Shown here piece by piece: positions 1,716 through 26,479 of a stretch of DNA of 64,000 nt (position 1 is its first letter; every line of letters starts with the position of its first letter). The notes under the pieces are model-generated. The model ran no database searches, was not told the origin of the DNA, and was given only the letters and a program-made list of their open reading frames with translations. A program made the translations under genes and the position numbers. Source of the stretch: Hydrogenophaga crocea (lineage in GTDB: Bacteria > Pseudomonadota > Gammaproteobacteria > Burkholderiales > Burkholderiaceae_C); NCBI RefSeq assembly GCF_011388215.1, contig NZ_CP049989.1:4196001-4260000 (forward strand). Direction: 5' to 3'.

Positions 1716-2494
1716 GCGTGCTGCAACTCTCGCCGCCGCAGGTGGTGGAGACCGCGGCCGCCGCCGGCTTTGGTCTGCTCGGCCTGAGGCTCGCAGCGGC
1801 CATGCCCGGCCAGGCCGTGTTCCCCATGCTCGGGCGCTCGCCCCTCATGCGCGAGACGCTGGCCCGCCTGGACGCCCTCGGCGTGGCGGTGCACGACGTC
1901 GAACTCGTGGGCCTGCGCGAAGACAGCGTGGCCGCCGACCACGAGGCCCTGTTCGAAGCCGCCGCCCGCCTGGGTGCGCGCCATGTGCTGGTGGCCGGCG
2001 ACGGCCACGACGAGGCGCGCCTGGCCGAGCGCTTCGCCGAGCTCGCGGTGCTGGGCCGGCGCTATGGTCTGCGCATGGGCCTGGAGTTCATGCCCTGGCG
2101 CGGCGTGCGCAACCTCGCGTCGGCGCAGCGCGTGCTGGCCCTGGCCGCCGAGGCCGGGGGCGGGCTCATCGTCGACGCCATCCACCTCGACCGCTCGGGC
2201 GACGGGGCCGGGGCGCTGGCGGCTATCCCCGCCGCGCAATGGAGCTACTTCCAGATCTGCGACGCGCCCGCGCAGCGGCCAAGCGACGAGGCCGAGCTGC
2301 TGCGCCAGGCGCGCGAGGCGCGGCTCGTGCCCGGCGAAGGCGGGCTCGACCTGCGCGGCATGCTGCGCGCGCTGCCCGAAGGCCTGGTGGTGTCGGTGGA
2401 AGCGCCGCTGGCCGATGCGCGATCGCCGCTCGATAAGGCGCGTGCGCTGCACCGCGGCGCGCGCGCGCTGCTCGAAGCCGTGGGCCGCTCATGA
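1685..2494 (+). CDS. Sugar phosphate isomerase/epimerase family TIM-barrel protein
   Basis: This 269-residue protein belongs to the xylose-isomerase-like TIM-barrel superfamily. The four metal ligands usual in this family can be placed at Glu134 (LEFMPW), Asp164 (VDAIH), Gln190 (FQICD) and Glu239 (SVEAP), so a divalent-metal site looks intact. Members act as isomerases, epimerases or dehydratases; 3-dehydroshikimate dehydratase is one. The ATG at 1685 lies inside the end of the epimerase gene and fits the family length. It is a distant paralogue of the protein at 17428-18333 and may do a parallel step in a related pathway. Confidence 0.75.
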   Translation: MAHPLCLAHLSVLQLSPPQVVETAAAAGFGLLGLRLAAAMPGQAVFPMLGRSPLMRETLARLDALGVAVHDVELVGLREDSVAADHEALFEAAARLGARHVLVAGDGHDEARLAERFAELAVLGRRYGLRMGLEFMPWRGVRNLASAQRVLALAAEAGGGLIVDAIHLDRSGDGAGALAAIPAAQWSYFQICDAPAQRPSDEAELLRQAREARLVPGEGGLDLRGMLRALPEGLVVSVEAPLADARSPLDKARALHRGARALLEAVGRS

Positions 2495-4194
2495 ACACCC
2501 CGCAAGCGCATGAGCACGACGTGATCGTGGTGGGTTCGGGCGCGGCCGGCCTGGCCACCGCGCTGTTCGCGGCGCTCGACGGCCTGGACGTGCTGGTGCT
2601 CGAGCAGAGCCTCTGGATCGGTGGCACCAGCGCCTTGTCGGCGGGGGCAATGTGGATCCCCAACACGCTGCATGGCGCCGCGGCCGGCGACACGCCCGAG
2701 CGCGCCGCCGCCTACCTGGCCGCGGCCACGCAGGGCGAGAGCCCCACCGCGCTGCGCGAGGCCTTCTTGCGCCTGGGCGCGGACGCGGTCCAGCGGCTCG
2801 AATCCGAAGCCGGCGTGCCCCTGCGCGCCTTTGCCCACCACCCCGACTACCTGGGCGACCTGCCCGGTGCGAGCACCGCGGGCCGCGTGCTCGAATGCCC
2901 GCCCTTCGACGGTCGCCGGCTCGGCGCGGACTTCGCGCGCCTGCGGCCGCCCATTCCCGAGTTCACCGTGCTCGGCGGCATGATGGTCGACCGCACCGAC
3001 ATCGGCCACCTGCTGGCCATGGGCCGTTCCTGGGCCTCGCTGCGGCACGCCGCGGGCCTGCTCGCGCGCCACGCCGCCGACCGCCTGCGCCACCCGCGTG
3101 GCACGCGGCTGGTGATGGGCAATGCGCTCGTGGGATGGCTGCTGCACGCACTGCGCGAGCGCGGCGTGCCGGTGTGGACGCGCAGCGCCGCGCTGGGCCT
3201 GTTGCACGACGGCGATCGCGTCTGCGGCGTGCGGCTGCAGCGCGACGGCACCACGCTGATCTGCCGGGCGCGCCGCGCGGTGGTGATGGCCGGCGGCGGC
3301 TTCAACGACCACCCCGACTGGCGCGCGCGCTGGCTGCCCCCGGCCGTGCGCCACAGCCCGCGCGCGGGCACCTCGCAGGGCGCCCTGCTGACCGATGCGC
3401 TGCGCCTGGGCGCGCGCCTGGGTGACGCGCCCAGCAGCAGCGCCTGCTGGGCGCCGGTGTCGGTGCACCCGCGGCGCGACGGCAGCACCGCGGTGTTCCC
3501 GCACTTCGTGCTCGACCGCGCCAAGCCCGGCACCCTGGTGGTGGATCCGCAGGGCCGCCGCTTCCTCGACGAGAGCAGCTCCTACCACCGCTTCGGCGAA
3601 GCCATGCTGGCCCACGCGCCGGCCGGCGGCGAGGCGGCAGCCTGGCTGCTGGCCGACCGCGAGGCCGTGCAGCGCTACGGCCTGGGCCTGGTGCGGCCCG
3701 GGGCGCGCGGCCTGCGCCGGTACGTGCGCGAAGGCCATGTGCTGCGGGCCCGCACGCTGCCCGAACTCGCCCGGGCCATGGGCGTGCCCGCCGATGCGCT
3801 GGTGCGCAGCGTGGCGCGCTTCAACGCACTGGCCGACGCCGGCTTGGACAGCGACCACGGCCGCGGCCGCACCCCCTACCAGCGCCACCTCGGCGACCCC
3901 GCGGTGGTGCCCAACCCCAGCCTGCGCGCGCTGCGCGAAGGCCCTTTCCATGCGCTGCGGCTGCAGGTGGGCGACATCGCGGGCAGCCGCGGCCTGCTCA
4001 CCGACGCGGCCGCGCGCGTGCTCGGGCCCGACGGGCCCATCCCCGGCCTGCACGCCGTGGGCAACGACATGCAGTCGGTGATGGGGTCGCACTACCCCGG
4101 ACCCGGCATCAACCTCGGTCCCGCGATCGTGTTCGCCCATGCGGCGGCACTGGCCCTGCGCCGCGGAACCCCAGACCCCCTGGAGACCCCCTGA
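2491..4194 (+). CDS. FAD-dependent oxidoreductase, 3-ketosteroid dehydrogenase/fumarate reductase flavoprotein family
   Basis: This 567-residue protein starts with the FAD-binding motif VGSGAAG followed by a Glu at the end of strand 2 (LVLE). It has GGTSALSAG for the flavin phosphate and a C-terminal SHYPGPGINLGPA segment. That segment resembles the active-site Tyr/Gly region of 3-ketosteroid delta-1-dehydrogenases, which desaturate a ring beside a ketone. No steroid genes are nearby, so a ring-desaturating role on another alicyclic ketone is an inference. It starts with an ATGA overlap after the TIM-barrel gene, and its stop overlaps the TRAP small permease start by one base. Confidence 0.8.
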   Translation: MNTPQAHEHDVIVVGSGAAGLATALFAALDGLDVLVLEQSLWIGGTSALSAGAMWIPNTLHGAAAGDTPERAAAYLAAATQGESPTALREAFLRLGADAVQRLESEAGVPLRAFAHHPDYLGDLPGASTAGRVLECPPFDGRRLGADFARLRPPIPEFTVLGGMMVDRTDIGHLLAMGRSWASLRHAAGLLARHAADRLRHPRGTRLVMGNALVGWLLHALRERGVPVWTRSAALGLLHDGDRVCGVRLQRDGTTLICRARRAVVMAGGGFNDHPDWRARWLPPAVRHSPRAGTSQGALLTDALRLGARLGDAPSSSACWAPVSVHPRRDGSTAVFPHFVLDRAKPGTLVVDPQGRRFLDESSSYHRFGEAMLAHAPAGGEAAAWLLADREAVQRYGLGLVRPGARGLRRYVREGHVLRARTLPELARAMGVPADALVRSVARFNALADAGLDSDHGRGRTPYQRHLGDPAVVPNPSLRALREGPFHALRLQVGDIAGSRGLLTDAAARVLGPDGPIPGLHAVGNDMQSVMGSHYPGPGINLGPAIVFAHAAALALRRGTPDPLETP

Positions 4195-4727
4195 TGGTGA
4201 ATCGGCTCATAGGACACATCTGCCGCCTGTTCGAGTGGCTGATGGTGATCTGCCTCGCGGCCATGGTGCTCATGGTGTTCGGCAACGTGGTGCTGCGCTA
4301 CGGCTTCAACTCGGGCATCACCGTGTCCGAAGAGCTGTCGCGCTGGCTCTTCGTGTGGATGACCTTCCTCGGCGCCTTCGTGGCCCTGCACACGCGCCAG
4401 CACCTGGGCACCGACATGCTCGTCGGCCGGCTCTCGCGCGGCGGCCGCAAGCTGTGCTTCGTGCTGGCGCGCCTGGGCATGCTGTTCGTGTGTGTGCTGG
4501 TGGTGCTGGGCGGCTGGCAGCAGACGCTGATCAACCGCGACGCGTTGAGCGCGGTGATGCAGGTCTCCAGCGCGATCTTCTACGCCAGCGGTGTGGTGTT
4601 CGGAGTGCTGGGCGGACTCGTGGTGCTGCACGAACTCGTGCAGGTGCTCGGCGGCGGCGGCAGCGACGACATGCTGCTGGGCTTTGCCGGCTCCGAAGAG
4701 CAGCCGCACGCGCAGGCACGGCCATGA
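4194..4727 (+). CDS. dctQ: TRAP transporter small permease (DctQ)
   Basis: This 177-residue inner-membrane protein has four hydrophobic segments. The family signature is clear: FGNVVLRYGFN, then SEELSRWLFVWMTFLG. It partners the large permease and a periplasmic binding protein to import an organic acid with sodium. The start overlaps the preceding stop by one base (TGATG) and the end overlaps dctM by ATGA. The first half is almost identical to the protein at 12696-13229, while the C-terminal tail differs. The substrate is unknown. Confidence 0.93.
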   Translation: MVNRLIGHICRLFEWLMVICLAAMVLMVFGNVVLRYGFNSGITVSEELSRWLFVWMTFLGAFVALHTRQHLGTDMLVGRLSRGGRKLCFVLARLGMLFVCVLVVLGGWQQTLINRDALSAVMQVSSAIFYASGVVFGVLGGLVVLHELVQVLGGGGSDDMLLGFAGSEEQPHAQARP

Positions 4728-6004
4728 TCCTCACGATCTTCCTCGTCACCCTGCTCGGCGGCATGGCCCTGGGCATGCCGATCGCGTTCGCCCTGCTGCT
4801 CAGCGGCGCCGCGCTCATGGCGCACCTGAACATGTTCGATCCGCAGATCCTGGCGCAGAACGTGATCGAGGGCGCCAACAGCTTCCCGCTGCTGGCCGTG
4901 CCCTTCTTCATGCTCGCGGGCGAGATCATGAACGCGGGCGGCCTGTCGCGGCGCATCGTGAACCTGGCCATCACGCTCGTGGGCCACGTGCGCGGCGGCC
5001 TGGGCTACGTGGGCATCATGGCCGCGGTGATGATGGCCGCGCTCTCGGGCTCGGCCGTGGCCGACGCGGCCGCGCTGTCGGCGCTGCTGCTGCCCATGAT
5101 GAAGCGCGCCGGCTACGACCCCGCGCGTTCGGCCGGTCTGCTGTCGTCGGCCGCCATCCTCGCGCCCATCATTCCGCCCAGCATCGGCTTCGTGATCTTC
5201 GGCGTCGCGGCCAACGTGTCGATCTCGCGCCTGTTCATGGCCGGCATCGCGCCCGGCATCATGCTCGGCGCGGCGCTGTGGCTCACCTGGTGGTGGCTGG
5301 TGCGGCACGACAAGATCGAGGCCCAGCCGCGCGCCAGCCTGGCCCAGATGCTGGGCGCGGCGCGCGACGCCACCTTTGCGCTGGGCCTGCCGGTGATCGT
5401 GGTGGTGGGCCTGAAGTTCGGCGTGTTCACGCCCACCGAGGCCGCGGTGGTGGCCGCGGTGTACGCGCTGCTGGTGTCGGTGTTCGTCTACCGCGAGCTG
5501 CGCTGGTCGCAGCTGTTCGGCCTGTTCCGATCGGCCGCACAGACCACGTCGGTGGTGATGTTCCTGGTGGCGGCGGCCATGGTCTCGGCCTGGATGATCA
5601 CCGTCGCCAACCTGCCGGCCGAGCTCATCGCGCTGCTGCAGCCCCTGCTCGACCGCCCCACGCTGCTGCTGCTGGTGATGATGGTGATCACCATGCTGGT
5701 GGGCACCGCCATGGACCTCACGCCCACCATCCTGATCCTCACGCCGGTGTTCATGCCGCTTGTGAAGGCCGCGGGCATTGACCCGGTGTACTTCGGCGTG
5801 CTGTTCATGATCAACAACGCCATCGGCCTGGTCACGCCGCCCGTGGGCACGGTGCTCAGCACCGTGGCCGGCGTGGGCAAGGTGAGCATGGACGCGGTCA
5901 CCAAAGGGGTGTGGCCCTTCATGCTGGTGCAGTTCGGCGTGATGTTCCTGCTGGTGTTCTTCCCCAGCCTGGTGCTGGTGCCGGCGCGCTGGTTCTACGG
6001 CTGA
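4724..6004 (+). CDS. dctM: TRAP transporter large permease (DctM)
   Basis: This 426-residue protein has about 12 to 13 hydrophobic segments and the TRAP large-permease signatures VPFFMLAGEIMN, SGSAVADAAA and PPSIGFVIFG, where the ion and substrate path is built. It is the last gene of operon 1. A 295-base stretch is identical at DNA level to the dctM at 13226-14506, and much of the rest is nearly so. This suggests recent gene conversion and a similar substrate class. A GC-rich inverted repeat follows the stop. Confidence 0.95.
   Translation: MILTIFLVTLLGGMALGMPIAFALLLSGAALMAHLNMFDPQILAQNVIEGANSFPLLAVPFFMLAGEIMNAGGLSRRIVNLAITLVGHVRGGLGYVGIMAAVMMAALSGSAVADAAALSALLLPMMKRAGYDPARSAGLLSSAAILAPIIPPSIGFVIFGVAANVSISRLFMAGIAPGIMLGAALWLTWWWLVRHDKIEAQPRASLAQMLGAARDATFALGLPVIVVVGLKFGVFTPTEAAVVAAVYALLVSVFVYRELRWSQLFGLFRSAAQTTSVVMFLVAAAMVSAWMITVANLPAELIALLQPLLDRPTLLLLVMMVITMLVGTAMDLTPTILILTPVFMPLVKAAGIDPVYFGVLFMINNAIGLVTPPVGTVLSTVAGVGKVSMDAVTKGVWPFMLVQFGVMFLLVFFPSLVLVPARWFYG
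4822..5116 (+). repeat. 295-bp segment identical to 13324-13618 within paralogous dctM genes
   Basis: Read base by base, these 295 positions match 13324-13618 with no difference, synonymous sites included. Differences appear on both sides: the codon before GCACCTG, and GAC versus AAC after GGCTAC. The two genes are otherwise clearly diverged at their ends. Confidence 0.9.
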
Positions 6005-21704: not shown

Positions 21705-22499
21705 ATGAACCTCGCCCTGGACCGCGGCCTCTCGCTGCTCGAACACCTGGCCCGCCACCCCGACGGCCTGCCGCTCGCGCTGATGGCCGAAGAGCTCGAC
21801 ATTCCCCTGAGCGCCTGCCACCGCCTGCTATCGGATCTGCAGCACCGCGGCTACGTGCGGCAGAAGCGCAAGCAGGGCGACTACCAGCTCACCACCAAGG
21901 TGGTGTCGATCGGCCTGGGCTACCTGAGTCACGGCGGGCTGGTCGACATTGCGGGCCCCCTGCTCGAGCGGCTCGCGCAGCAATCGGGCGAACTGGTGCG
22001 GCTCTCGATCGTGGACGACGACCGCCTGACCTTCGTGGCCAAGGCCCAGGGCGAGCGCCAGCAGGGCGTGCGCTACGACCCCGACATGGGCGCGGACGTG
22101 TGGCTGTCGTGCTCGGCCTCGGGCCATGCGTGGCTGGCCACGCTGAGCGACGAGCGCGCGGTGGCGCTGGTGGCGCGCCAGGGCTATGGCAGCACGCGCG
22201 ACTTCGGCCCCAAGGCGCCCACCACCATCAAGGCCCTGCTGGGCTTTCTGCACGCCGCGCGCGTGCGCGGCTACGCCATGATCGACGAGGTGTTTGCGCC
22301 GGGCATGTGCGCCATGGCCGCGCCGGTGCTGCGGCGCCAGCAGTGCATCGGCGTGATCAGCATCGCGGGCCCGCGCTCGCGCCTGGGGCCTGCGGCCATG
22401 CAGGCCCTGGCACCGTCCTTGCTGGCGGCTGCCGCTGAACTCGGGCCCGTGAGCAATGCCTCGGGCCTGTTCGGTCGACCGCCCCTGGGCAAAGGATGA
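21705..22499 (+). CDS. IclR family transcriptional regulator
   Basis: This 264-residue protein has an N-terminal winged helix (LLEHLARHPDGLPLALMAEELDIPLSACHRLLSDLQHRGYV) and a C-terminal effector domain with GVRYDPDMG and CSASGHAWLA. These regulators typically sense aromatic or organic acid intermediates. It is divergent from the aroQ-dctPQM operon, its presumed target. The ATG at 21705 directly follows the candidate operator. It ends in an ATGA overlap with the MgtC-like gene. Confidence 0.92.
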   Translation: MNLALDRGLSLLEHLARHPDGLPLALMAEELDIPLSACHRLLSDLQHRGYVRQKRKQGDYQLTTKVVSIGLGYLSHGGLVDIAGPLLERLAQQSGELVRLSIVDDDRLTFVAKAQGERQQGVRYDPDMGADVWLSCSASGHAWLATLSDERAVALVARQGYGSTRDFGPKAPTTIKALLGFLHAARVRGYAMIDEVFAPGMCAMAAPVLRRQQCIGVISIAGPRSRLGPAAMQALAPSLLAAAAELGPVSNASGLFGRPPLGKG

Positions 22500-23194
22500 A
22501 CATGAACCCCCTGTACCTCGAAGTGGCCGTGCACCTGCTGAGTGCGATGGTGGCGGGCGGCCTGATCGGCCTGGAGCGCAGCTACCACGGCCGCCCCGCG
22601 GGCTTTCGCACGCACACGCTGGTGTGCCTGGCGTCGAGCCTGCTGATGCTGGTGACGGTGTACCAGGGCTACTGGTTCGGCGGCGAAGCCGCCAAGGGCC
22701 AGGTGACCATGGACCCGACGCGCATGGCGCAGGGCATCATGACCGGCATCGGTTTCCTGGGCGCCGGCGTGATCTTCAAAGAGGGCCTGTCGGTGCGCGG
22801 CCTGACCACCGCGGCCTCGATCTGGGTGACGGCGGCCATCGGCGTGCTGATGGGCGTGGGCTTTTACTTCGCGGGCGTGCTCGCCACGGTGCTCACGCTC
22901 GGGGTGCTGGTGGTGTTCCACCGCATCGAGCAGCGCCTGCCCACGCACATCTATGCGCAGCTCAACGTGCGCTTCGGCCGCGAGCAGGCCATGCTCGAAG
23001 CCGAGCTGCGGCAACTGCTCACCGAGCACGGCTTCTCGATCGCCAACCTGAGCTACCGGCTCGAAGACGGCGATGCCTTCGAGTACCGGATGATGGTGCG
23101 CACGCGCAAGCCCGAGCAACTCGCGGTGCTGGCGCGCAGCCTGAGCGGCTTGAAGGCGGTGCAGCAGTTCCGGTTGTCGCCGACGGGGGATTGA
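22496..23194 (+). CDS. MgtC/SapB family membrane protein
   Basis: This 232-residue protein has about five N-terminal hydrophobic helices and a cytoplasmic C-terminal ACT-like domain from about residue 140. The family signatures are GGLIGLERSYHGRPAGFRTHTLV, GFLGAGVIFKEG and LTTAASIWVTAAIG. MgtC-like proteins affect magnesium homeostasis and F-type ATPase activity in pathogens; the role of environmental homologues is less clear. It is translationally coupled to iclR (ATGA), an odd pairing with no obvious functional link. Confidence 0.9.
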   Translation: MNMNPLYLEVAVHLLSAMVAGGLIGLERSYHGRPAGFRTHTLVCLASSLLMLVTVYQGYWFGGEAAKGQVTMDPTRMAQGIMTGIGFLGAGVIFKEGLSVRGLTTAASIWVTAAIGVLMGVGFYFAGVLATVLTLGVLVVFHRIEQRLPTHIYAQLNVRFGREQAMLEAELRQLLTEHGFSIANLSYRLEDGDAFEYRMMVRTRKPEQLAVLARSLSGLKAVQQFRLSPTGD

Positions 23195-23222
23195 GCGGCT
23201 TGTGCGCTGGCCGCTTCGGGCG

Positions 23223-23461
23223 TGTCAGGGCGGTGGCGGTGGCCGGGGTGGCTTCGGTGCGGCGCCCCTCGCTGCGCGAGGGGTTCCCTGCGATGCTCGG
23301 GCGTCCGGCCCGGCGGCAGAACTCGCTGCGCGCCCTTCGGCCGCTCCGCTCAAACAGCTGCCGCCAATCAGATGACCAAGCGCGCTGCGCGCGCGGGCCG
23401 GCCACCCTGCGCTTCTCGGCGCCGCACAGGCGCCACCCCGGCCACCGCCACCGCCCTGACA
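23223..23461 (+). mobile_element. MITE-like element, copy A (239 bp, perfect 30-bp terminal inverted repeats)
   Basis: The first 30 bases (23223-23252, beginning TGTCAGGGCGGTGG) are the exact reverse complement of the last 30 (23432-23461, ending CCACCGCCCTGACA). The inside is non-coding by appearance and contains a GGCGGCAG/CTGCCGCC stem. No target-site duplication was obvious. Bases 23282-23439 match the reverse complement of 24970-25127 at 147 of 158 positions without gaps. It carries no transposase, so it would need one in trans. The rest of the gap 23195-23576 is a 28-base tail after mgtC and a 115-base AT-richer leader in which I see no gene. Confidence 0.75.
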
Positions 23462-23576
23462 AGAGAGGGGTGAGCGTTCGGGTGGCGGGAATGGCGGAAA
23501 CGTTGGATATAACGAACAGCGGTCTTCGACTGGGAGCGGACGTTGATAACCAGCAGCTTTCAAGTAGGCTCACCAC

Positions 23577-24782
23577 ATGCCTGCGATCGGATCACTTACG
23601 TTCTCCTTCGATGAAGGGTTTGACTCTGGCGTCGCGCTACTGCTGGTCAAAGCTCCGACTGAGGCAGTATCTGGCGCGTACGGACGTTGCTACGTGCAGG
23701 CCGCACCTGACTCTCCGCACGTTGTTTGTAGATTCAGCGGGGCGACGAATGAAGAAGAAGCAATCTCTAGAGGAACAGTGATTGCGCAAGAGGCGCTGGA
23801 CATGCTCTCTGTGCTTGGGCGTGGCGATCTTGTCACTCGAGATGCGCAAGACGAACACATTGCTTGGTGGTGCTCTTCGGGCCGCAACTGTGTTTCTTTG
23901 GTGTCGACAGCCACGTTCACTCTCAAGGCAGGACCCATAGAGATCACAGTCAGAGACGCAGACGGGAATGTTGTCCCGCCAGTCCGCGTTGCGCCTACGC
24001 ACCATCTGGCGTTTCGCTTCTATCGACTCGCGCAGGCGTCTGACGATCTGTACGACGCCTACCGCAACATGTATTTGGCGTTTGAGAGTCTGTTGTCGAG
24101 CAGGTATCCGAAGGGCCGGGGGCAGGAGATCAATTGGCTTCGGGCCTCCATGGCATCTGCGGCTACGGATCTCGATTTGGCCTCTCTGGTGCCAGCAACC
24201 GCTACGGACCCAGTACAGCACTTCCTCCATACGGTCTACGAAGGGGCGCGCCTTCCGCTGTTCCACGCGAAAGACGGTCGCGCGTACTTCGCTCCCGCCG
24301 AAGGCCAAAGTGATCGACTTGCGGTTGAAGCCGCGCTAATCATGCTCACCCAGGTGGTGCTGCGTATGGCCGACAAATGGCATGCTGCAAGACGCCTCTC
24401 CAGCTGGGTCAATCTCAAGCTCATAGAAGACCAGAACAGGACGCTATTCGATGGTTCGCAGTTCTACTATGTGGACGATCCGTCAGTCGATTTGAAGAAG
24501 GAGCCTGATCACGCTTCACTTGCCGGAGGGGTCGCCTTTCCGGCGATCTTTATGGACAACTTCGCGGGTCAAACTCGACACAATTTAGTCGGTCAGGTTG
24601 ACACCGCACTGCTCGCGTCTCGAGGTCGATTACAGGCAGTTTTTCTAGGTCGTGATGGATACCCCCTCATTGGGTTCAATCCGGATACATCGATCGACAT
24701 GACTGGCTTTCATCAACTGAATGTCCGCCTGTTCATTCGCGGACGGAACGGCGGGCAGCCTCGCTACCTCTTTCCTAGATGA
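23577..24782 (+). CDS. HEPN-like domain protein of unknown function in a low-GC islet
   Basis: This 401-residue protein has a distinctly lower GC content and different codon use from its neighbours (mid-50s percent by eye). Residues 1-140 look like a beta-rich domain. Residues about 145-270 are helical, with DDLYDAYRNMYLAFESLLS and then a conserved-looking ARLPLFHAKDGR giving Arg225-x4-His230. This matches the R-x4-6-H signature of HEPN domains, often found in RNases of defence and toxin systems. Residues 270-401 are unassigned. It stands alone, flanked by inverted MITE-like copies, with a poor ribosome binding site. Foreign origin is very likely; function is inferred from one motif. Confidence 0.7.
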   Translation: MPAIGSLTFSFDEGFDSGVALLLVKAPTEAVSGAYGRCYVQAAPDSPHVVCRFSGATNEEEAISRGTVIAQEALDMLSVLGRGDLVTRDAQDEHIAWWCSSGRNCVSLVSTATFTLKAGPIEITVRDADGNVVPPVRVAPTHHLAFRFYRLAQASDDLYDAYRNMYLAFESLLSSRYPKGRGQEINWLRASMASAATDLDLASLVPATATDPVQHFLHTVYEGARLPLFHAKDGRAYFAPAEGQSDRLAVEAALIMLTQVVLRMADKWHAARRLSSWVNLKLIEDQNRTLFDGSQFYYVDDPSVDLKKEPDHASLAGGVAFPAIFMDNFAGQTRHNLVGQVDTALLASRGRLQAVFLGRDGYPLIGFNPDTSIDMTGFHQLNVRLFIRGRNGGQPRYLFPR

Positions 24783-24946
24783 CCCCATCAACTGACCGAA
24801 ACCGAGGCATCCAGGCACTTGATCCCCACCCTTACGCCCTAGGTGACCGCTTGCTGAATCGCCAATGGCCAAACTGAATGTCAGCCAAGTGCCCAAAGCA
24901 GACTCGCCATCTCTTCTCTTCGCACCGCACCCCCACCATGCTCGCT

Positions 24947-25179
24947 GTGCCAGGGGTGGGCGCTGTGGCGGGGTGGCGCCTGTGCCGTGCCGAGAAGCGC
25001 AGGACGATCGGCCCGCGCGCGCAGCGCGCTTCGTGATCTGACTGGCGGCAGCTGTTTGAGCGGAGCGGCCGAAGGGCGCGCAGCGAGTTCTGCCGCCGGG
25101 CCGGTCGTCCGAGCATCGCAGGGAACCCCGCAGGGGCACGGCACCGAAGCCGCCCCGCCACAGCGCCTGCCCCTGGCAC
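24947..25179 (-). mobile_element. MITE-like element, copy B (233 bp), inverted relative to copy A
   Basis: Terminal inverted repeats are 24947-24977 and 25149-25179, matching at 28 of 31 positions. The core 24970-25127 is the reverse complement of the copy A core with 11 mismatches in 158. The outer ends differ from copy A but share the GGGGTGGC block. The remainder of the gap 24783-25267 is 164 bases of lower-GC sequence after the HEPN-like gene and 88 bases of C-rich leader before the glycosyltransferase gene; I see no gene in either. Confidence 0.75.
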
Positions 25180-25267
25180 CCGCCGGCGTGAAACCCCCCA
25201 CCGCCCTGAAACCCCACCGACACCCACCCGTCACACAAACGTCGCACGCGCCCCCTAGCCTGCGCCC

Positions 25268-26479
25268 ATGCAGCAGGTCGACCTCGTTTACTTCAACGCC
25301 GGCGGCGGCCACCGCGCTTCCGCGCTCGCCTTGCAGGCCGTGCTCAAGGAGCAGGCCCGCCCGTGGAACGTGCGCCTGGTCAACCTGTTCGAGGTGCTCG
25401 ACCCCCAGGGCCGCTTCCGCCAGCTCACCGGCATGGCCCCCGAAGACTGGTACAACCGCCGCCTCGCGCGCGGCTGGACCCTGGGCATGGCGCAAGAACT
25501 CAAGCTGCTGCAGGCGCTGATCCGCGTTTCGCACCCCACGCTCACGCGCCGCCTCGCCGCCCACTGGCGCAGCACCCGGCCCGACCTCGTCGTCTCGCTC
25601 ATCCCCAACTTCAACCGCGCAATGTGCGCCGCGCTCGCGCAGGCCCGGCCCGGTGTGCCCTACGCCACCGTGCTCACCGACCTCGCCGACCACCCGCCGC
25701 ACTTCTGGATCGAACCCGGCCAGCCCCAGCACGTCGTCTGCGGCACGCCGCGCGCGGTGCAGCAGGCCCTGGCCGCGGGCCACCCGCCCGGGCGGGTGCA
25801 CGCCACCAGCGGCATGATCCTGCGGCCCGATTTCTACCGACCGCCTGTGGCCGACCGCGCCGCCGCGCGACGCGCCCTCGGGCTCGATCCCGATCGCCCC
25901 ACCGGCCTGGTGCTGTTCGGCGGCCACGGCTCGCGCGCCATGCTCACCCTCGCGCGGCAACTGCCCGGCGTGCAGCTCATCCTCATCTGCGGCCACAACG
26001 CGGCGCTGGCGCGGCGGCTGCAGGCCCTGCCCGCGCCCGCCCCGCGCCACGTGGTGGGCTTCACCACCGAGGTGCCGCAGCTCATGGACCTGGCCGATTT
26101 CTTCATTGGCAAGCCCGGCCCCGGCAGCGTGAGCGAAGCGGTGCAGCGCGGCCTGCCGGTGATCGTGGTCGACAACGCCTGGACCATGCCGCAGGAGCGC
26201 TACAACCCGCAGTGGGTGCTCGAACACGGCCTGGGCCTGGTGGCGCGCAGCCACCGCGGCATCGGCGCCGCCGTGGCCGCGCTGATGGCCGATCTGCCGG
26301 CCTTCCGGGCGCGCGTGGGCGCGCGCCGCAACCGGGCGTTGTACGAGGTGCCGCAGCTGCTGGCGGGGCTGCTGGCCGGGGATCCGGCGGGGGCGGAGAT
26401 GGGGGAGCGGGCGCGGCCCGCGTACAGTTCGGGTTTTGCGCCCGAATGCCCCCTGGAGCCCGAATGTCCACCCGCGTGA
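25268..26479 (+). CDS. Monogalactosyldiacylglycerol synthase-like glycosyltransferase
   Basis: This 403-residue GT28-type glycosyltransferase has the N-terminal acceptor motif FNAGGGHRASA, typical of MGDG and processive glucosyl-diacylglycerol synthases. The C-terminal donor-binding domain includes LFGGHGS and the nucleotide-sugar block IGKPGPGSVSEAVQRGLPVIV. It likely adds a hexose to a diacylglycerol at the inner membrane. The ATG at 25268 begins just before the conserved strand. It overlaps the downstream receiver gene by 16 bases; its last 20 residues after PAGAE look like read-through into that leader. Confidence 0.82.
   Translation: MQQVDLVYFNAGGGHRASALALQAVLKEQARPWNVRLVNLFEVLDPQGRFRQLTGMAPEDWYNRRLARGWTLGMAQELKLLQALIRVSHPTLTRRLAAHWRSTRPDLVVSLIPNFNRAMCAALAQARPGVPYATVLTDLADHPPHFWIEPGQPQHVVCGTPRAVQQALAAGHPPGRVHATSGMILRPDFYRPPVADRAAARRALGLDPDRPTGLVLFGGHGSRAMLTLARQLPGVQLILICGHNAALARRLQALPAPAPRHVVGFTTEVPQLMDLADFFIGKPGPGSVSEAVQRGLPVIVVDNAWTMPQERYNPQWVLEHGLGLVARSHRGIGAAVAALMADLPAFRARVGARRNRALYEVPQLLAGLLAGDPAGAEMGERARPAYSSGFAPECPLEPECPPA

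Follow-up and report, generated by a model that had tools for sequence, protein, structure and literature searches.

The minimal mobile elements of Neisseria exchange differing gene content at a fixed place which is bounded by conserved genes. Integron cassettes also occur outside integrons, where they are lone low-GC genes without a transposase of their own. As far as the sections of the reports at hand describe them, REPINs are doublets of REP sequences which form hairpins, and the short REPs are tied to RAYTs (PMC3116915, PMC3733652). TIME-COMPs are characterized, in the portions available, as composites of independent Tn3-derived MITEs with 38-bp Tn3 ends and duplications of 5-6 bp, which transpose as one (PMC4133298, PMC13367494). 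The excerpts on the BRE describe a GC-rich repeat of Betaproteobacteria, about 90 bp in length, sometimes tandem and usually intergenic, which is found in Polaromonas and Acidovorax among others (PMC3110155).

In this study, two inverted repeats (hereafter arms) that enclose a low-GC gene were analyzed in a 64,000-nucleotide stretch of Hydrogenophaga crocea (positions 4,196,001 to 4,260,000 of NZ_CP049989.1), which is referred to as the window. Units of this kind resemble the minimal mobile elements of Neisseria in holding differing content at a fixed place, while the boundary is formed here by paired structured repeats instead of conserved genes. They share single low-GC genes without a transposase with the cassettes outside integrons, whereas here paired arms are present on both sides and a crude detector found no attC. 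Like REPINs, they are dispersed, non-autonomous inverted structured repeats with a variable spacer and compensatory changes; however, the arms are about 180-240 nt long with a branched predicted fold, compared with 20-40 bp for a REP. In further contrast to REPINs, no link to a Y1 transposase was found, the spacers may hold genes, and whole units are inverted in place. The likeness to TIME-COMPs, as judged from the portions consulted, is that short non-autonomous elements surround low-GC or foreign cargo and may be in opposite orientation, but the arms here are already paired without cargo and bound to sites, and the cargo varies (PMC4133298, PMC13367494). With BRE the arms have in common the high GC content, the betaproteobacterial and overlapping hosts (Polaromonas and Acidovorax) and the mostly intergenic position; they are set apart from it by description only, since BRE measures about 90 bp and no inverted pairing is described in the excerpts (PMC3110155). 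The original prediction knew of no description of this family, and we came to the same result within the open-access literature, subscription journals being mostly outside this scope; the available part of PMC5217627 contained nothing on the arm family.

The inverted repeats of the window and the enclosed gene

The window contains an inverted pair of repeats of 161 nt each (23280-23440 and 24969-25129), which are identical at 150 of 161 positions (93%). Two elements in opposite orientation had been predicted, and both were recovered with exactly the predicted ends (Table 1); the ungapped core match of 147 in 158 positions was also reproduced by the best 158-nt stretch. Each element has a terminal inverted repeat of its own, of 44 nt in the left element and of 45 nt (24947-24991/25135-25179, 87%) in the right one. 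The single-strand folding of the left arm gave a z of -7.9 with DNA parameters and that of the right arm a z of -8.8 with RNA parameters, and in both cases none of 200 shuffles was as low.

Table 1. Features of the paired-arm unit in the window
Feature	Position	Strand	Basis
Left arm of the unit, predicted branched hairpin, inward-reading	23223..23461	+	Terminal repeats and arm alignment/folding
Left arm outer stem, 5' side, pairs with 23418-23461 (93%)	23223..23266	+	Repeat and folding
Left arm outer stem, 3' side	23418..23461	+	Repeat and folding
Conserved box CTGCGATGCTCG	23288..23299	+	58-arm alignment
Conserved box AACTCGCTGCG	23320..23330	+	58-arm alignment
Conserved box CTCCGCTCAAACA	23344..23356	+	58-arm alignment
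Conserved box CTGCGCTTCTCGGC	23407..23420	+	58-arm alignment
Cargo stretch in the spacer, 56.6% GC	23462..24946	.	GC scan
Cargo gene, 401 aa, MauJ family PF17419	23577..24782	+	ORF and profile match
Right arm, an inverted copy of the left one, with its core at 24969-25129	24947..25179	-	Repeat and folding

The GC content of the 1485 enclosed bases was compared with that of equally long stretches across the window, whose mean was 70.5% (sd 3.7). With 50-bp stepping, a value as low as that of the enclosed stretch (at most 0.5 percentage points above it) was reached only at the starts 23451 and 23501. The prediction of a single gene of foreign base composition between the repeats was thus borne out, with one ORF in a region of about 70% GC. 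The encoded protein matched the MauJ profile at 58.1 bits (cut-off 28). The distribution of this gene was patchy: among 100 genomes (own included), the sole other match at E ≤ 0.001 was a weak one in G026 (36% over 62 residues), and at E ≤ 1e-15 it was present in 3 of 399 family genomes, again with its own, where the other two proteins were 33-34% identical. Among the matches listed, the nearest other protein was 84% identical and came from another Hydrogenophaga sp. The PADLOC profile search with the window gene gave no match, a solved-structure search with the MauJ alignment gave 0 matches at E 0.1, and a test for an attC-like fold at the gene's 3' end returned z values of 0.10 and 0.38 for the two strands.

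Synteny of the gene and its flanks in all relatives had been named as a finding that would speak against the cargo idea, and the gene was found not to be syntenic in relatives. Among 66 genomes of the genus, the flanking genes (22496-23194 and 25268-26479) were near each other only in G079 and G070 (about 3.7 kb apart). The counterpart in G079 has both flanking genes, separated by what look like a VOC gene and a TetR gene, and lacks an arm; it was the nearest case to an empty site, as neither a clean empty site nor a second genome with a unit at this position was found.

Pairing, distribution and predicted fold of the arms

The genome that contains the window (4.56 Mb, single contig) has three arm pairs, all inward-facing, and two of them hold a foreign-looking gene. 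Besides the window pair with the MauJ gene, a second pair, whose arms lie about 1.1 kb from each other, encloses a putative abortive-infection gene (putAbiC PF16872, 65.6 bits). The remaining pair (L010) has a short spacer, and one of its arms apparently carries an internal deletion. The repeats are therefore not scattered singly without foreign genes in their own genome, which the original prediction had given as another opposing case. In the genus, an arm match at E ≤ 1e-9 was present in 20 of 67 genomes (own included), and units were located at no fewer than eight separate places in the single genome G027. A scan with a degenerate pattern yielded at least 120 stretches, and the hosts among the matches listed were Acidovorax, Pseudacidovorax, Rubrivivax, Xenophilus, Pelomonas, Polaromonas, Methylibium, Roseateles, Variovorax and others. 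A search of plasmid and phage records with the left arm gave no match. In the pattern scan, one complete arm pair with a distance of 194 bp was seen in a viral-contig record (IMGVR_UViG_2816332133_000001).

Adjacent arms less than 4 kb apart were counted with a profile built from the hits, on 172 loci, with ten duplicate loci removed. At a profile score of at least 40, 101 of the 102 pairs were '+-' and one was '--'; at any score there were 114 '+-', one '++' (L163), one '--' (L189) and no '-+'. The distance between the profile hits of a pair had a median of 155 bp. TIME-COMPs are made from independent elements which also occur singly, whereas here 101 of 102 adjacent arms form inward pairs, 94 of them within 420 bp. 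Arms without a partner within 4 kb numbered 58 of 259 (at least 60 bits), some of them at contig or locus ends and some facing a degenerate partner. Since the arms come already paired in one orientation, the reading that independent MITEs flank a gene by chance was rejected. The two repeats of the window are the arms of one paired unit, which was found from Hydrogenophaga to Acidovorax, Rubrivivax and Polaromonas.

The cargo-free units are short and non-coding, and those of one Hydrogenophaga subfamily have as terminal inverted repeats the 10-bp outer repeats GCACCTCGCG/CGCGAGGTGC with a few substitutions. The genes on the two sides of a unit were tandem in 43 cases, convergent in 21 and divergent in 2 (66 of 89 resolved, with duplicate loci still included).

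For the covariation analysis, an alignment of 58 rows was made from 67 non-redundant arms (out of 214), from which ten were removed by hand, several of them among the most divergent, and to which the window arm was added. In these 58 diverged arms, 25 base pairs in six helices had 91.6% of cells paired, the pairs being chosen on the same alignment on which they were scored. Changes on both sides were present at 24 of the 25 pairs, in 473 cells compared with a shuffled mean of 154.5, and the covariation was 0.828 compared with 0.241 in shuffled and 0.072-0.106 in slid controls. When all 68 arms were used, 86.3% of cells were paired, and the covariation was 0.763, whereas shuffled controls gave 0.217 (at the most 0.242 in 100) and slid ones 0.075-0.170. 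The ten left-out arms alone fitted more poorly (75.7% paired, covariation 0.581). The decrease upon restoring these arms means that the margin is partly due to selection, while the excess still stands. Moreover, several boxes were nearly constant while the stems varied: CTGCGRTGCTCG, AACTCRCTGCG, CTCCGYTCARACA and CTGCGCTYCTCGGC. The mismatch types, which were counted for the folding strand, were 71 G-T and 37 A-C cells, and 31 and 37 when one column was removed. Rfam gave no match up to E 1 for window positions 23000-25400; in seven other loci the sole hit was to a miRNA, far under its gathering score, and it lay outside the arm on the minus strand. From these data, each arm is predicted to fold into a branched hairpin with strong covariation, for which no Rfam family was found.

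Content and orientation of units at fixed sites

Spacers which hold genes are a minority, and their genes are mostly low-GC and mostly single. The seven inward pairs with a spacer above 420 bp were six cargo-bearing units (the window, L009, L040, L042, L062 and L143) and L198, whose spacer of 511 bp has 67% GC and no low-GC cargo; at lower score, L190 and L200 were added. Furthermore, L067 and L072 are cargo units with a degenerate second arm, and low-GC genes lie inside of one arm in L155, L160, L208 and L213, where only one end was read. The GC content of the cargo was mostly 50-59%, with 46% in L200 and 61-66% in L067, which is not low-GC. Apart from MauJ and putAbiC, the contents comprised DUF6678 and DUF1963, a membrane protein of 150 aa as judged by eye, a pair of ORFs (253 and 310 aa), a YdeI/OmdA-like protein with an HTH protein, a YoeB/ParE-like protein accompanied by a PEP-CTERM protein, as well as unknowns and a GNAT acetyltransferase. 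PADLOC gave only weak matches on 14 proteins (AbiP/AbiC for the L009 cargo and LmuB in L160). From these contents and matches, the cargo is not simply defence. At the promoter-side arm of L040, L042 and L067, about 110 bp from arm to cargo are shared, and by eye a -35/-10-like stretch lies before different genes.

Other cargo genes between inverted copies, for which the original prediction had suggested a search, were thus found elsewhere (e.g., putAbiC, DUF6678, DUF1963, YoeB-like and GNAT). Together with the foreign-looking and patchy gene of the window they support its cargo idea in part, the reading of two independent elements that form a composite transposon being unsupported. Among the cargo read there was no autonomous transposon with the same ends, and no recombinase or transposase was found inside a unit. 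In L163 of Acidovorax, about 3.9 kb between two arms were read by eye for a recombinase and showed host-like ORFs. For three cargo genes, the plasmid records gave 2, 0 and 4 matches, the best being 50% identical and from Halomonas.

Comparison of the flanks identified sites with differing content, and the units compared within each of four sites come from different genomes. Site A had three contents, namely the DUF6678 gene of L040 (H. intermedia S1), the membrane protein gene of L062 (isolate ECS22B1) and the YdeI-like and HTH genes of L067 (isolate CS4-C022). Site B contained two ORFs in L042 and a 216-aa ORF in L072. At site C, where only the right flank is comparable at length, a DUF1963 gene in L143 (2PF) stood against another ORF in L200 (Aquabacterium parvum B6), and at site D the YoeB-like and PEP-CTERM genes of L190 (also in 2PF) stood against no cargo in L198 (isolate AER3_2). 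The L198-type spacer was mostly retained in L143 and L200, in which the cargo lies near the right arm at a similar point and replaces about 70-85 bp; in L190 it was partly absent. We infer that these sites are fixed sockets with exchangeable content.

The empty sites which the original prediction had proposed to look for were found for the L040, L010 and S3 units. The site of L040 was empty in the window's own genome, where its flanks are about 40 bp apart, and likewise in G021, G026, G069 and G070. That of L010, which appears to lie between the ends of two genes, was empty in G072, G104, G082, G062 and G070. Site S3 was empty in two genomes (L363 and L364), where about 22 bp of the right end of the unit remained, with one mismatch in one of them; this remnant would be a scar left by deletion or else a motif of the target. 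No clean target-site duplication was seen at the empty sites, at which little intergenic sequence is left and S3 retains part of the end.

The orientation was compared among the 84 units whose flanks extended over 700 bp or more on each side. Relative to the flanks, 25 of the 42 orthologous pairs had the same orientation, 15 were inverted and 2 were undecided. The 40 resolved pairs came from 12 sites, nine of which had no inversion. All inverted pairs fell at three sites, of Hydrogenophaga, cargo-free and of one subfamily, and are therefore not 15 independent events. At two sites read base by base, the flanks were collinear and the orientation switched at or near GCACCTCGCG/CGCGAGGTGC at both ends. 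Moreover, 12 of the 14 units at the three inverted sites were more similar to a unit from a different site than to any of their orthologs, in a test which sets few orthologs against many other units; such better matches are only suggestive of swapping between sites. In 12 non-inverted orthologous short pairs, the arms were 88.7-100% alike (one arm 77.0%) and the flanks 88.6-97.8%, as would be expected of plain vertical descent. In L046 and L064, an orthologous cargo-free unit, the arms were 98.6-100% identical and the flanks 90-95%.

Possible mechanisms and sources of the cargo

The explanation we favor, to which we give an even chance, is one non-autonomous paired-arm unit at a fixed site, in which the content or the whole unit is exchanged or turned in place. 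Each single-stranded arm would adopt a branched hairpin in which the boxes are fixed, and the arms face one another across a spacer that mostly measures about 150 bp. A minority of copies, including that of the window, hold in the spacer one or two mostly low-GC genes, which would be drawn from a mobile gene pool. The unit sits at a fixed chromosomal site, seldom between divergent genes, and would act as a socket. The exchange may be driven by the quasi-palindromic arms together with the short outer terminal repeats. Since each arm is the inverted homologue of the other, the resident unit could pair in either orientation with one that arrives or lies nearby. A giant hairpin may then form on one strand with both ends of the unit at its base, where recombination or template switching would flip the unit or change its content. 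Alternatively, a putative recombinase could act on the outer repeats, with the same outcome and a better account of the sharp ends. Some of the cargo may be derived from integron-like cassette arrays.

We consider it unlikely, on the present comparisons, that the Burkholderiales have a dedicated undescribed exchange system, in which the outer arm ends would be crossover sites for a putative recombinase, and the sockets would exchange and invert cassettes of one gene each, putative abortive-infection and toxin-antitoxin genes among them, with no integron or transposon involved.

The exchange of content at fixed sites would offer one explanation for lone low-GC genes which sit and are replaced at fixed chromosomal places, and the arms would name a widespread structured repeat family of the Burkholderiales without a Rfam match. 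With the in-place inversions and the differences in cargo, the exchange lends itself to direct tests in harmless laboratory strains.

A composite transposon or MITE pair, in which a trans-acting transposase moves arm, cargo and arm via the outer repeats like TIME-COMPs, is in our estimate also unlikely. The conserved sites would then be old insertions and the differing cargo the outcome of repeated insertion at preferred sites, in keeping with the short outer terminal inverted repeats, the many places occupied in G027 and the empty counterparts in relatives. However, most copies are cargo-free and have their arms paired in one orientation nonetheless, no autonomous element shares the ends among the cargo read, no target duplication is readable, and the empty S3 sites retain part of the right end; a composite transposon that moves as one is not supported. 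It is more doubtful that the arms are structured 3' ends or two-way terminators under RNA-level selection, in which cargo is tolerated as harmless. Whole-unit inversion, the better matches at other sites and the arms on both sides of the cargo would be left unexplained by such selection, and the count for the folding strand has no clear direction, against which stand the strong covariation, the rarity of divergent placement and the conservation of the arms in most non-inverted orthologous pairs, about like that of the flanks or more. The least probable of the rivals, and a very unlikely one, is a giant relative of REPINs, which a Y1 tyrosine transposase would move in single-stranded form, the cargo being accidental. 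Of 66 genomes, 46 had a Y1_Tnp match, whether they carried arms or not, and none was found (E 1e-8) in the near-complete arm-bearing genomes G024, G073 and G083; no arm lay in 12 Y1_Tnp loci (about 2-3 kb) or in the 5.5 kb around the Y1_Tnp of the window's own genome. The arm length given above also exceeds that of REPs. In favor of this rival, the inverted doublets, the compensatory changes and the avoidance of divergent promoters resemble REPINs. Mobilisation by the resident Y1 transposase was rejected, as no link to the arms was found in these genomes and loci.

Another rival, which we regard as quite improbable, is that an integron integrase put cassettes into secondary sites in the spacers, the arms being merely a safe or accessible place. 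The cargo is mostly low-GC and mostly one gene, and its repertoire presumably resembles that of integron cassettes. The integron integrase (TIGR02249, E ≤ 1e-50) was present in the arm-bearing genomes G027 and G100, but absent from the window's genome (G000), G103, G104, G072, G079 and G062. No attC-like site was detected in the 14 cargo stretches by the crude detector, which was also blank in two of three integron loci, and the rejection of a typical integron cassette on these two grounds is weak for this reason. The DUF6678 gene of L040 has a relative (87% at the DNA level over 329 bp) in a low-GC small-gene array of G062, in which no arm was detected and whose genes include SMI1/KNR4 and isochorismatase. 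The junction motif GTCCGCTYCTGGCCGA, which was drawn from this array, occurs there six times, all on one strand, and elsewhere three times in L040, once in L062 and once in the window cargo (three mismatches). In G100, it occurs with 1-3 mismatches at about 4900-5700 of L328 (G100:C26:195001-214000), in or beside a low-GC stretch adjoining the integron integrase. The 14 cargo stretches gave 5 hits compared with 0.5 in shuffles, the motif being absent from 11 of them, which speaks against this rival; the rest of the window gave 6 hits compared with 3.1 in shuffles, all at three mismatches. The shared motif and the DUF6678 relative point to integron-like arrays as one possible cargo source, and the array of G062 is possibly a cassette array without an integrase. 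In L386 (G062:C5:14000-23000), this low-GC small-gene array spans 2043-4770, with the junction motif every few hundred bases.
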